Assembly (NCBI GenBank): GCA_020847545.1
Contig: JADLBV010000006.1
Span: 1 to 36,318, forward strand
Direction: 5' to 3'
Origin: Phycisphaerales bacterium
GTDB taxonomy: Bacteria; Planctomycetota; Phycisphaerae; Tepidisphaerales; Tepidisphaeraceae
Length of the DNA stretch: 36,318 bases
Shown: positions 25,950-31,421 of the stretch, one piece after another
Numbering within the stretch: position 1 is the first letter of the stretch
Layout: each line of letters opens with the position of its first letter
Notes under the pieces: generated by a model
What the model was told of the DNA's origin: nothing
The model's input: the letters and a program-made list of their open reading frames with translations, nothing else
Databases searched by the model: none
Position numbers and translations under genes: made by a program

Positions 25950-26855
25950 ATGAGTGAGAACACCGTCCATTCCATCAATGAACGTGCCGCCGCCGAGTAT
26001 TTCAAACGCGGCAATGAGGCCGAAACCCAGGGTTCGCACGAGCGTGCCGTTGATTTTTATGAGCGCACGCTGAATGAAAACCCCGATCACGAACAGGCCT
26101 GTTTTCGACTGGCGGTGCTGTATGACCGACAGGCGGACGATGCCAAGGCGATTGAGCTGTACGAGCGGATCTGCACCGGTTCGCCGGTTCCGATCAACGC
26201 CTTGATGAATCTGGCGATTTTGTACGAGGACAACAACCACTACGAAGAGGCGTATCGTTGCCTTGGCGCGGTGTTGCGGTCCGATCCGAATCATGCCCGG
26301 GCGCGGCTGTACATGAAGGATGTGGAGTCGGCGCGGTCGATGTATTTTGATGAGGATTCCGACCACCGCAGCGATCGTCGCAGCGCGGTTCTGGAAGTGC
26401 CGCTGAGCGATTTTGAGCTGTCGGTTCGTTCGCGCAACTGTTTGAAGAAAATGAACTTGCGCACGCTTGGGGATTTGCTCCGCACGACCGAGCAGGAATT
26501 GCTCGGATACAAGAATTTTGGCGAAACCAGCCTCAGTGAGATCAAGGCGTTGTTGGCCAGCAAGGGTTTGAGGTTGGGTCAGGCCGCCGAGAACAAGGAG
26601 GGGGCATCGGGCCAGAGCGCGGCCGAAGTGGATGACACGCCACCGGAAATTCTGAGCAAAAACGTGGCCGATCTGGAACTTTCGGTTCGCAGTCGCAAGG
26701 CGCTGCAGCGGCTGAATATCAACACCATCAGCGACTTGACGGCGCGCACCGAAGATGAGTTGCTGGGGTGCAAGAATTTTGGCCAGACCAGCCTGAATGA
26801 GATCAAGCAACAACTCGGCACGCTTGGGATTTCGCTTCGGAAGCTGGAAGAATAG
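25950..26855 (+). CDS. TPR protein with two RNA polymerase alpha C-terminal domains
   Basis: A 301-residue soluble protein. Residues 12-125 hold three TPR repeats. Two alphaCTD-like domains follow at 152-210 and 239-297, separated by an acidic linker. The first reads FELSVRSRNCLKKMNL and NFGETSLSEIK; compared with E. coli alpha it keeps R265 (Arg160), N268 (Asn163), C269, G296, S299 and E302, but K298 is Thr. The second keeps Arg but has Lys at N268 and Thr at K298. No alpha N-terminal domain is present, so it cannot replace alpha in the core enzyme. It could bind UP-element DNA or activators, or compete with alpha. Such proteins occur in Planctomycetes. Preceded by a good promoter. Confidence 0.9.
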   Translation: MSENTVHSINERAAAEYFKRGNEAETQGSHERAVDFYERTLNENPDHEQACFRLAVLYDRQADDAKAIELYERICTGSPVPINALMNLAILYEDNNHYEEAYRCLGAVLRSDPNHARARLYMKDVESARSMYFDEDSDHRSDRRSAVLEVPLSDFELSVRSRNCLKKMNLRTLGDLLRTTEQELLGYKNFGETSLSEIKALLASKGLRLGQAAENKEGASGQSAAEVDDTPPEILSKNVADLELSVRSRKALQRLNINTISDLTARTEDELLGCKNFGQTSLNEIKQQLGTLGISLRKLEE

Positions 26856-26909: not shown

Positions 26910-28136
26910 ATGGCTCGATTGATTTTGCGAGCACTATTCCCACTGCTGTTGCTGGTTCCACTGGCGTGCAGCCGTGAAAACCCCGCCATCTTGAGCAACG
27001 CCGCCGGCGTGCCGCTGGTGCGGGTGAGGTTGTTGCAATCCCAGGAAAGCGTCACCGTCGCCGCCAGCCAACCGCCCACCGTCCGCACCAGCGCGGACAA
27101 CACCCCCCGGCCGCTGCAATTTCCCAATTCTCCCGTATCGGTCACATTTGGTCCGGGCGGATGGCGCATTGGCTCGCTAACACTCAGCCCGGGCGTGCTG
27201 ACCATTCAGCCGGCGGCCGATGGCTCGGTGGTGGTCAATGGTCAGAGGTATCGCGGCCAGTATCGTTTTGTGCCGGTCACGGCCAATCGTTTTGATGTCA
27301 TCAATGATGTGGATGTTGAAAGCTATCTGATGAGCGTCGTCTCAAAGGAGATGCTGCGGCTGTGGGATGCCGAATCGTACAAGGCCCAGGCTATCGCCGC
27401 CCGCACATACGCCCTGTATGAAGCCAGGACCACGCCCGCCGGCCGGGGATGGGATGTTTACGACGACGAGCGTTCGCAGGTCTACGGGGGTATTGGCGCG
27501 GAAACTGACAAATCGATCAATGCCGTGCAATCCACCCGCGGGATTGTTCTGGCGTATGGGCCGGCCGGCCAGGAACGGATCTTCAAAGCCTATTTTTCAT
27601 CCTGCTGCGGAGGCATCGGCCAATCGGCCTATGACGCTTTTGGCGATCCGTGGTCCGAACCATTGTCCGAGCAAAACCACGGCACATTGTGTTCGGCCTC
27701 GCCCGCCTTTAATTGGGGGCCACTGGCCATCGCCAAGGATGAATTGACCCGCCGAATCCGCTCATGGGGTGAGCGAAAAAACCGTGCGGAAAAGGACATG
27801 GCGCTGCTGACGAGCATCGAGATCCAGGCGAGAAATCGCCTTGGTCGGCCGGTGCGGTTTTTATTGACCGACATTCGGGGCGCCCGCTACAGCCTGTCGG
27901 GCGAAGAGACCCGCACCGCCATCAACAGCAATGCCGGCAATGGGCCGGTGCTTTATTCGAGCTTCTTTCGCACCATCAACGACGCGGCCGCCATTCGGTT
28001 TGTCGACGGTCACGGCCGGGGGCATGGGGTGGGAATGTGCCAATGGTGCGCCCAGGCCATGGCCGAGCGGGGTTACAAGGCAAACCAGATCGTGCTGTGG
28101 TCCTATCCGCGCAGCAAGCTCGTCAAGGCGTATTAA
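26910..28136 (+). CDS. SpoIID/LytB-domain protein, likely peptidoglycan lytic enzyme
   Basis: A 408-residue exported protein. The hydrophobic N-terminus ends in LLVPLAC, a lipobox-like site with Cys20. The SpoIID domain runs from about residue 125: VDVESYLMSVVSKEM carries the presumed catalytic Glu147, followed by AQAIAARTYAL, the FSSCCGG cysteine pair and the C-terminal GHGRGHGVGMCQWCAQAMAERG. In SpoIID these elements form a lytic transglycosylase that cuts glycan strands lacking stem peptides. A GGAGG site precedes the ATG. It follows the alphaCTD protein by 54 bases and is convergent with the kinase gene. Confidence 0.85.
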   Translation: MARLILRALFPLLLLVPLACSRENPAILSNAAGVPLVRVRLLQSQESVTVAASQPPTVRTSADNTPRPLQFPNSPVSVTFGPGGWRIGSLTLSPGVLTIQPAADGSVVVNGQRYRGQYRFVPVTANRFDVINDVDVESYLMSVVSKEMLRLWDAESYKAQAIAARTYALYEARTTPAGRGWDVYDDERSQVYGGIGAETDKSINAVQSTRGIVLAYGPAGQERIFKAYFSSCCGGIGQSAYDAFGDPWSEPLSEQNHGTLCSASPAFNWGPLAIAKDELTRRIRSWGERKNRAEKDMALLTSIEIQARNRLGRPVRFLLTDIRGARYSLSGEETRTAINSNAGNGPVLYSSFFRTINDAAAIRFVDGHGRGHGVGMCQWCAQAMAERGYKANQIVLWSYPRSKLVKAY

Positions 28137-28156: not shown

Positions 28157-29050
28157 TTATTCCGCGGCGGAACGAATCAGGTTGTCCCGGTTCGTGGCGT
28201 GATGGATGGTTTCCAGTCGGCGGATGACTTCGGACATATTTTCCGGCCGTTTGGAGGGGACGGTTCGCACGCAATCCATCACCAGGTTGGAGAGGCTTTC
28301 GGGAACCTTGGGATTGATTGTGCGGGGTGAGGACATCTGCCCATCGACCAGGAAGCTGTTTTCCGTCTTTTTAAGTGTAAAAAGGGTGGGCAATTTCTGG
28401 CCGGTCAATGACCAGTACATGGTGGCGCCGAGGTTGAAAATGTCCGTTCGGACCGTGACCGGCTGGCATTTGACCTGTTCGGGGGCGATGTAGTCGGGTG
28501 TTCCCTGAATGCGTTGTTTGGCCGTGCCGATTTTGCAGGCCTGGCCGAGGTCGATCACTTTGACCTGGCCGGCGTGGTTGATCAGGATATTGTTGGGTTT
28601 GAGGTCGCAATGGACGAATCCGAGTCCATGCAGCGAATCGAGCGCCTGCGCGGTTTGGATGAAGCACGAGACCATCCCCAGCATGTCCGTGGGGAGGTTC
28701 ATGTCCAGCGGCATTCCATCCACCAGTTCCATGACCACGATGGCCTCGGTGATTTTGCGTAAGAGTGTCCGTTCGACCTTGTAATCGAATGACCGGCGCA
28801 GTCCGGAGTGGTTGACCTGTCGACCAACTTCGTATTCGGCCTCCAGTTGCGAGATAAACCGGATGTCCCGGTCGGTTTTGCGCAAAACGTGCTTGATCGC
28901 CAGAATCTGTTTGGTGTTGGGATTGGTGCCGGCATAAATGGTGCTGCCAGCGCCGGTGCCGATGTGCTCTATGATGTCATAGCCAAAGAGCGACCGTGGC
29001 AGGTCCACGCTCGAAGAAACCAATGAAGAACCGTTTGGCCAAAGACTCAT
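28157..29050 (-). CDS. serine/threonine protein kinase, non-RD type
   Basis: A 297-residue cytoplasmic Hanks-type kinase with the domain filling the protein, no membrane helix and no sensor. Visible elements are the G-loop GTGAGS (31-36), Lys53 in the AIK motif, the catalytic HCDLKPNN (147-154) in which Arg of HRD is Cys, the metal motif DLG in place of DFG (167-169), and APEQ (189-192). The HCD form marks a non-RD kinase that does not need activation-loop phosphorylation. The lysine and both aspartates are kept, so it should be active. The ATG at 29050 is preferred over an upstream GTG. It follows atpA on the same strand after 236 bases and converges on the SpoIID gene. Confidence 0.88.
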   Translation of the reverse strand: MSLWPNGSSLVSSSVDLPRSLFGYDIIEHIGTGAGSTIYAGTNPNTKQILAIKHVLRKTDRDIRFISQLEAEYEVGRQVNHSGLRRSFDYKVERTLLRKITEAIVVMELVDGMPLDMNLPTDMLGMVSCFIQTAQALDSLHGLGFVHCDLKPNNILINHAGQVKVIDLGQACKIGTAKQRIQGTPDYIAPEQVKCQPVTVRTDIFNLGATMYWSLTGQKLPTLFTLKKTENSFLVDGQMSSPRTINPKVPESLSNLVMDCVRTVPSKRPENMSEVIRRLETIHHATNRDNLIRSAAE

Positions 29051-29125
29051 ATACACGATGATCCAAAAGAAAAAAGCCGTTGTATGCCGCCCCTCATCGG
29101 CGGCCCGGCGGGAAAGACATTACCC

Positions 29126-29286: not shown

Positions 29287-30798
29287 TTACTTACGCCAAG
29301 CCCGCTCCTTGAAGTCCGTGAGGGTTTGTTTCAGTTGAGTTTCGATTTCGGCCGTCAGTTCCTTCTTGTCGGCCAAGGCTTTTCGCAGGCCGGCGGCGCT
29401 GGTATCGATGTATTTCAGCAACTCGTTCTGGAACTGCTGGACACGGTTGATGGCGATATCGTCCAGATAACCTTGGGTGCCGGCGTAGATGACGATGACT
29501 TCCAGCTCCATCGGCATGGGTTTGAACTGGGGCTGTTTGAGGAGCTCAACCAGTCGGGCACCGCGGTCCAATTGCTTTTGGGTGGCTTTGTCCAGTTCGG
29601 TACCAAGCTGGGCAAAGGCTTCGAGTTCGCGATAGGTGGCCAAGTCCAAGCGCAGGGAGCCGGCGACCTTTTTCATCGCCTTGCTTTGGGCATTGCCGCC
29701 GACGCGGCTGACGGAGATGCCGACGTTGATGGCCGGGCGCACGCCAGCGAAGAAGAGGTCCGGTTCGAGGTAAATCTGGCCGTCGGTGATGCTGATGACG
29801 TTGGTCGGGATGTAGGCCGAGACTTCACCTTCCTGGGTTTCGATGATCGGCAGGGCGGTGAGCGAACCGCCGCCTTTGTCGGCCGACAGTTTCACGGCAC
29901 GTTCCAGCAGGCGGCTGTGTAGATAGAAGACGTCGCCGGGATATGCCTCGCGGCCGGGCGGGCGGCGGAGCAGCAGCGACAACTGGCGATAGGAGGCCGC
30001 CTGTTTGGAAAGGTCGTCATAGACGCACAGCGTGTGCTGCCCTTTCCACATGAAATACTCGGCCATGGCGCAGCCGGCGTAGGGAGCGATGTATTGCAGC
30101 GGGGCCGGGTCGGCGGCGCCGGCGACGACGACGGTGGTGTATTCCATCGCGCCATGCTGGCGGAGGATTTCGACCACGCCGGCAACCGATGATTCCTTTT
30201 GGCCGACGGCGACGTAGAAGCACTTAACGCCGGTTCCCTTCTGGTTCAGGATCGCATCGAGTGCGATGGTGGTTTTGCCGGTTTTGCGGTCGCCGATGAT
30301 CAATTCGCGCTGGCCGCGGCCGATGGGGATCATCGAGTCGATGGCCTTGATGCCGGTTTGCAGCGGTTCCTTGACCGGTTGGCGGTCGGCGATGCCGGGG
30401 GCGACGATGTCGAGCTTGCGGGTTTCGGTGCTGGCGATGGCCGGGCCGCCGTCCAGCGGCTGGCCGAGGGGGTTGACCACACGGCCGATGACCGCGTCGC
30501 CGACGGGCACTTCGAGCAGTCGGCCGGTGGATTTGACCTGTTCGCCTTCCTTGATGTCAAGGTAGTTGCCGAAGATGACGGCGCCGATGGAGTCTTCCTC
30601 GAGGTTGAAGACCTGGCCCATCGTGCCATTCTCGAATTCGAGCAATTCGCCGGCCATCGCGTTGCGAAGGCCGTAAATGCGGGCGATACCGTCGCCGACT
30701 TCGATGACGGTGCCGACTTCGCTGACTTGCAGCTTCTGCTCGAAATCAGCGATTTCGCGACGAAGCACACTGGTGATTTCCGCTACGTTGATGGCCAT
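29287..30798 (-). CDS. atpA: ATP synthase F1 subunit alpha
   Basis: A 503-residue subunit of the catalytic head. The P-loop reads GDRKTGKT (about 172-179), preceded by [10 protein letters not shown]; the C-terminal signature [14 protein letters not shown] is complete. Length is normal. It is the last gene of the run atpZ-I-B-E-F-H-A. No atpG, atpD or atpC follows; a 236-bp gap and a kinase gene are there instead. The alpha subunit binds nucleotide at the non-catalytic sites; the beta and gamma partners must be encoded elsewhere. Confidence 0.97.
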
Positions 30799-30857
30799 GA
30801 TCCAATCTCTCCGGTTCTGTTTGTTGGTTGTGTTGTGATTCTTTGTTCCGTAATCGA

Positions 30858-31421
30858 TTATTTATTCGGCCGATGGCTTAACAATTGTTGTTTCATCGAC
30901 TGCAACTGTGACCGCACCGAGGCGTCGATCAACTGGTCACCGACCCGCACCACCAGCCCGCCGATGATCGATTCATCCACATATTGATGGACGACCGCCT
31001 CTTTTCGCAATGCCTTGCCGACATGCTGGCGAACCTCTTCCAATTCATTGGCCGGCAGTTTGTGGGCGACGGTGACATCCACCTCGATCTTGCCCAATTG
31101 GTCATTGAGCAGGTCTTCGTAGGCGTCGGCGATTTCGCCAAGCAATTTCAATGATCCGCGGCTGTTGAGCACCCGCAGAAAGTTCCAGACCAGCGGCGAG
31201 ACGTTGCCTGAGAATATCTTTTCCAAAAGGGCCGTGCGTTCGGTTGAACCGATGGCCGGATCGGACAGGATCGTCTTAAATGTCGGGTTGGACTCGACGA
31301 TTTCCTGCAACTGGCCCAATTCCTGAGCCAATGACTCGGCCTGTTGGCGTTCATTGGCCAGATCAAGCAGCGTTTTCGCATACGCCACGGCCGCCGCGGA
31401 AAAATGCTGGGATGCGTTCAT
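30858..31421 (-). CDS. atpH: ATP synthase F1 subunit delta
   Basis: A 187-residue protein with the OSCP/delta pattern: an N-terminal helical bundle (residues 8-110) starting [17 protein letters not shown], and the C-terminal signature [25 protein letters not shown]. It joins the peripheral stalk b subunit to the top of the alpha/beta head. It lies between atpF and atpA with a gap of about 60 bases on either side. Confidence 0.95.

Follow-up and report, generated by a model that had tools for sequence, protein, structure and literature searches.

The C-terminal domain of the α subunit (αCTD) is familiar as a component of RNA polymerase, and αCTD folds also serve as protein hubs. In Escherichia coli NusA, the C-terminal acidic repeats AR1-AR2 are tandem αCTD-like five-helix domains on a non-α protein, and the BREX PglW kinase (NF033442), a large defence-system protein, bears an αCTD-like domain outside rpoA as well. 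Generic TPR adaptors, for their part, form a peptide groove from three canonical TPRs. The E. coli αCTD holds DNA at its backbone and minor groove through R265 and N268 (PMC11434276), and D259/E261 contact R603 of σ70 (PMC5511352). The protein described here is encoded in a 36,318-nt stretch of DNA from a Phycisphaerales bacterium (hereafter the window), and consists of three TPRs followed by two αCTDs. Like NusA, it ends in tandem αCTD-like domains without being an α subunit, but these domains match αCTD and follow TPRs instead of the NusA S1/KH domains; NusA models were not among the NCBIfam matches listed for it, nor were the NusA N-terminal, S1 and KH domains among its Pfam matches. The PglW model weakly matches residues 134-225, but the protein is small, phylum-wide and without a kinase domain. 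From generic TPR adaptors it differs in the fusion to two αCTDs and in having groove residues conserved across the phylum. Literature searches on αCTD, TPR and Planctomycetes brought up no description of such a protein. The gene and its surroundings are organized as follows:

25950-26855, forward strand: TPR-αCTD-αCTD protein, whole coding sequence (ATG start, 301 aa, Pfam matches)
25989-26294, forward strand: three TPR repeats, residues 14-115 (Pfam, AlphaFold2 model, TPR structure match)
26295-26393, forward strand: long connecting helix, residues 116-148 (AlphaFold2 model, orthologue alignment)
26373-26558, forward strand: αCTD1 (DNA-level PF03118 match, residue alignment)
26643-26816, forward strand: αCTD2 (DNA-level PF03118 match, residue alignment)
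26910-28136, forward strand: SpoIID-domain protein, a separate protein given for context, the downstream neighbour conserved in the class (Pfam)

The existence of this protein at 25950-26855, proposed in a preliminary description made from the sequence, is confirmed, and the domain order TPR-αCTD-αCTD read there is borne out by Pfam, DNA-level matches and AlphaFold2 alike. In hmmscan searches of the whole protein against Pfam, TPR families cover residues ~14-120, several of them above the gathering score (TPR_1, TPR_2, TPR_14, TPR_16 and TPR_19), and RNA_pol_A_CTD (PF03118) is found twice (E=5.2e-43, 145 bits, the cut-off being 23.8). The αCTD matches are far better than those to generic helix-hairpin-helix (HhH) models. 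At the DNA level, αCTD1 and αCTD2 score 75 and 79 bits, respectively, which excludes a chance match, and a chance or mis-called ORF is likewise ruled out by the Pfam scores together with orthologues across the phylum. Only TPR and αCTD families pass the Pfam cut-offs, and Pfam/NCBIfam profile searches agree with the preliminary description in that an α N-terminal domain (αNTD) is absent; NCBIfam rpoA models cover the CTD part only and stay far below cut-off (e.g., 130 versus 227.8 bits). The AlphaFold2 model (pLDDT 91.8, with a pTM of 0.59 that leaves the relative domain placement unfixed) shows TPR helices at residues 2-111, a continuous helix at 116-148 that connects the TPR part to αCTD1 unbroken, αCTD1 at 159-204 and αCTD2 at 246-291, with a disordered spacer at ~219-232 between the two αCTDs. 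Structure comparison matches the modelled TPR part to consensus TPR structures, and the model of a long orthologue of 457 aa has an extra N-terminal helical-repeat region followed by the same TPR-αCTD-αCTD core.

This protein is clearly distinct from the polymerase subunit with which it shares fold and family. The real rpoA of the genome is a separate gene, divided between the ends of two contigs; it has an αCTD of its own, next to a gene that we take from its sequence to be rplQ, and the gene for the TPR-αCTD-αCTD protein sits away from this rpoA-rplQ locus. In a maximum-likelihood domain tree, rpoA, αCTD1 and αCTD2 form three separate branches (support 96/96, 99/96 and 96/89, respectively). 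A broken rpoA fragment is ruled out, as the rpoA CTD adjoins rplQ on another contig and the αCTD1 and αCTD2 clades stand apart from rpoA. Within the tree αCTD1 groups with αCTD2, which fits an origin of both from one old duplication, the deep order being tentative with so few alignment columns. What is retained of the rpoA αCTD (PF03118) comprises R265, G296, S299, E302 and the σ-contact acids, plus N268 in the first domain. What differs is that two αCTD copies are placed on a TPR scaffold without an αNTD, and that both carry A267R, αCTD1 an acid at position 297 and αCTD2 K/R at position 268.

While the preliminary description treated the protein as a local curiosity, it now appears as a nearly universal Planctomycetota protein. 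Any match was obtained in 293 of the 294 Planctomycetota genomes sampled, but rpoA alone gives E values of ~1e-10 to 1e-15 and the threshold was therefore set at E<1e-30, at which protein searches recover a full-length orthologue in 277 genomes. The 17 genomes without one are all drafts, at most 92% complete, and only two of them reach at least 90% (90 and 92%). Among 61 close relatives, 55 contain the core at E<1e-70. A PF03118 search of the 98 genomes at least 95% complete found exactly three αCTDs in 83, one from rpoA and two from the TPR-αCTD-αCTD protein. Four genomes have two αCTDs in total, and in the two of these that were inspected (G088 and G239) the TPR protein retains αCTD1 and has lost αCTD2; where there are more than three, the additional ones that were inspected lie either in small ORFs with a single αCTD or in ORFs of great length. 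Among the matches listed from a scan of genome contigs (at least 80 loci), all are Planctomycetota or records titled only 'bacterium'. Plasmid, phage and IMG/VR viral collections yielded no full-length relatives, by which a mobile or phage gene is ruled out. The protein is nearly universal in the sampled Planctomycetota, normally single copy, and old.

Residue conservation was counted over 54 distinct orthologues and compared with rpoA in 27 matched genomes having all three domains, with αCTD sequences of E. coli and B. subtilis as references for numbering. On this numbering, we take R160, N163, G191, T193, S194 and E197 of αCTD1 as the equivalents of E. coli R265, N268, G296, T298, S299 and E302, its acids D154 and E156 as those of D259 and E261, and R247 and K250 of αCTD2 as those of R265 and N268. 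All five DNA-contact positions assigned to αCTD1 in the preliminary description (R265, N268, G296, S299 and E302) are indeed present, and R160 and N163, whose conservation it had singled out as decisive, are kept in 53 and 51 of the 54 orthologues, respectively. F155 and E197 are invariant (54/54 each), and the σ-contact acids vary only between Asp and Glu (D51 E3 at the D259 equivalent, E49 D5 at that of E261). In αCTD2, R265, G296, S299 and E302 are present, R247 in 54/54, and the reported loss of N268 holds across the phylum, with Lys or Arg in its place (K33 R16 N3 Q1). By contrast, the replacement of Lys298 by Thr pointed out there is no loss, Thr being the normal residue at this position in Planctomycetota rpoA (26/27).

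Mean pairwise identity in the 27 matched genomes is 71.1% for αCTD1, 58.5% for the rpoA αCTD and 53.4% for αCTD2, the excess of αCTD1 over rpoA lying between +0.099 and +0.153 (95% bootstrap over genomes). This higher conservation of αCTD1 than of the polymerase's own domain in the same genomes argues for strong selection on αCTD1 function. Some of the residue conservation in a helix-hairpin-helix-like fold is owed to folding, which tells against the adaptor reading given below. Over the seven DNA-face positions, mean modal frequency is 0.96 for αCTD1, 0.97 for rpoA and 0.86 for αCTD2. Unlike rpoA, αCTD1 has A267R in 27/27 genomes, and its position 297 is always acidic (E23 D4), where rpoA has K/R in 24/27; this acid could weaken or redirect DNA binding. 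Conservation extends beyond the αCTDs to the linker helix (D124 in 53/54, M131 in 49/54 and D134 in 47/54 orthologues) and to TPR residues F52, N87, E93 and D94 (each in at least 53/54), which line the groove according to consensus TPR numbering.

Taken as a whole, the preliminary description is partly supported, and the reading we favour, with a confidence somewhat short of even, is that the TPR-αCTD-αCTD protein would be a core adaptor of the Planctomycetota, for transcription or for DNA, providing RNA polymerase αCTDs in trans. Its more specific form, in which a separate TPR protein delivers extra αCTDs, constrained more tightly than rpoA's own, to RNA polymerase at promoters as a core trans-acting factor, is possible but clearly more doubtful. 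In this mechanism αCTD1 would grip DNA, its probable target being, as for the rpoA αCTD, the A/T-rich minor groove on the upstream side of promoters, and it may touch σ region 4 through the acids equivalent to D259/E261. DNA binding by αCTD1, possibly with a σ4 contact, is the simplest reading because four contact residues are kept and the domain is more conserved than that of rpoA. R603 is conserved in one related σ of the class, the sole σ read there (L217), and the evidence for the possible σ contact lies on the αCTD side. The second domain may provide another DNA contact, looser, more basic (positions 267/268) and dispensable, rather than being purely protein-binding. Of the preliminary proposal that the differing residues mark one DNA-binding and one protein-binding domain, the consistent difference between αCTD1 and αCTD2 stands and the functional split is not supported: with R265 invariant and N268 replaced by Lys or Arg, αCTD2 retains its basic character, and a loss of DNA binding does not follow. 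A conserved peptide of a partner would sit in the TPR groove, and a regulator would in this way be tethered to promoters or RNA polymerase. Should this be true, an entire phylum of unusual cell biology would possess one more general factor for transcription (or DNA binding). Tools for testing the protein exist, as a transposon-essentiality map of Planctopirus limnophila has been reported (PMC10632474).

The gene neighbourhood brings in the alternative that survives best, although we consider it unlikely, namely a protein of repair, recombination or the nucleoid that binds DNA together with RuvAB, its αCTDs serving as plain HhH clamps without contacting RNA polymerase. Among 36 phylum-wide loci with enough flank, the gene lies directly upstream of a co-directional ruvA in 16, mostly 14-120 nt away, and the immediate downstream gene is spoIID in nine others and tgt in two. 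It is often the first gene of a ruvA-ruvB-spoIID-tgt-yajC-secDF cluster, and this full order is found in four loci from distant Planctomycetota families (L046, L072, L073 and L074). RuvA and SpoIID were identified by Pfam, and Tgt, YajC, SecDF, RuvB and MurA are presumptive names given by reading the sequences. RuvA carries HhH domains too (Pfam), and αCTD2, with its K/R at 268, is more basic than the rpoA CTD. However, the ruvA link is not kept in the class of the window, where spoIID is immediately downstream instead in 47 of 71 loci of the Phycisphaerae set, αCTD1 retains σ-contact acids that would be superfluous in a pure DNA clamp, and αCTD models fit both domains far better than generic HhH. 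The neighbours ruvAB, spoIID, tgt and secDF do not point to transcription. In the window itself, the SpoIID gene begins 55 nt after the TPR-αCTD-αCTD gene. The good promoter credited to the gene was not recovered, a consensus scan finding no σ70-consensus promoter upstream where 0.5 are expected by chance. The SpoIID gene is followed directly by a 299-aa ORF in the opposite orientation (28157-29056, reverse strand) that we take to be a Ser/Thr protein kinase ('HCDLKPNNILINHAGQVKVIDLGQA'), and the ORFs at 29287-31421 (reverse strand) presumably encode ATP synthase alpha and delta subunits.

It is also conceivable, if quite unlikely, that the αCTDs engage in protein-protein contacts only, with the rpoA αCTD (NusA AR2-like) or with activators, the TPR part being the effector. 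The known use of αCTD folds as protein hubs and the departure of αCTD1 from the usual rpoA residues at 267 and 297 in every matched genome are in line with such a role, but R265, N268, G296, S299 and E302 vary no more than they do in rpoA, and without DNA contact this is difficult to account for. A decoy, one of the roles suggested in the preliminary description, would keep UP elements, σ or activators away from RNA polymerase and thereby lower rRNA or activated transcription; this is a speculation of low probability. In its favour, αCTD surfaces without an αNTD cannot assemble into the polymerase core, but the near-universal single-copy retention and the conserved TPR groove and linker suggest a tethered partner, which a core adaptor fits better.

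Other free αCTDs occur besides those of the core adaptor candidate. A second kind consists of 113-155-aa frames with one αCTD in families f72 and f81 (L240, L241, L242 and L243), in which the motif GLSVRTTNCLE..GI.TV.DLL...NFGEKTL.EVY keeps the R265 and N268 equivalents. Weaker αCTD matches lie within very long frames of 822-1524 aa (L244, L245, L246 and L247), of which L246 has a start that reads like a protein-kinase region and may be PglW-like.
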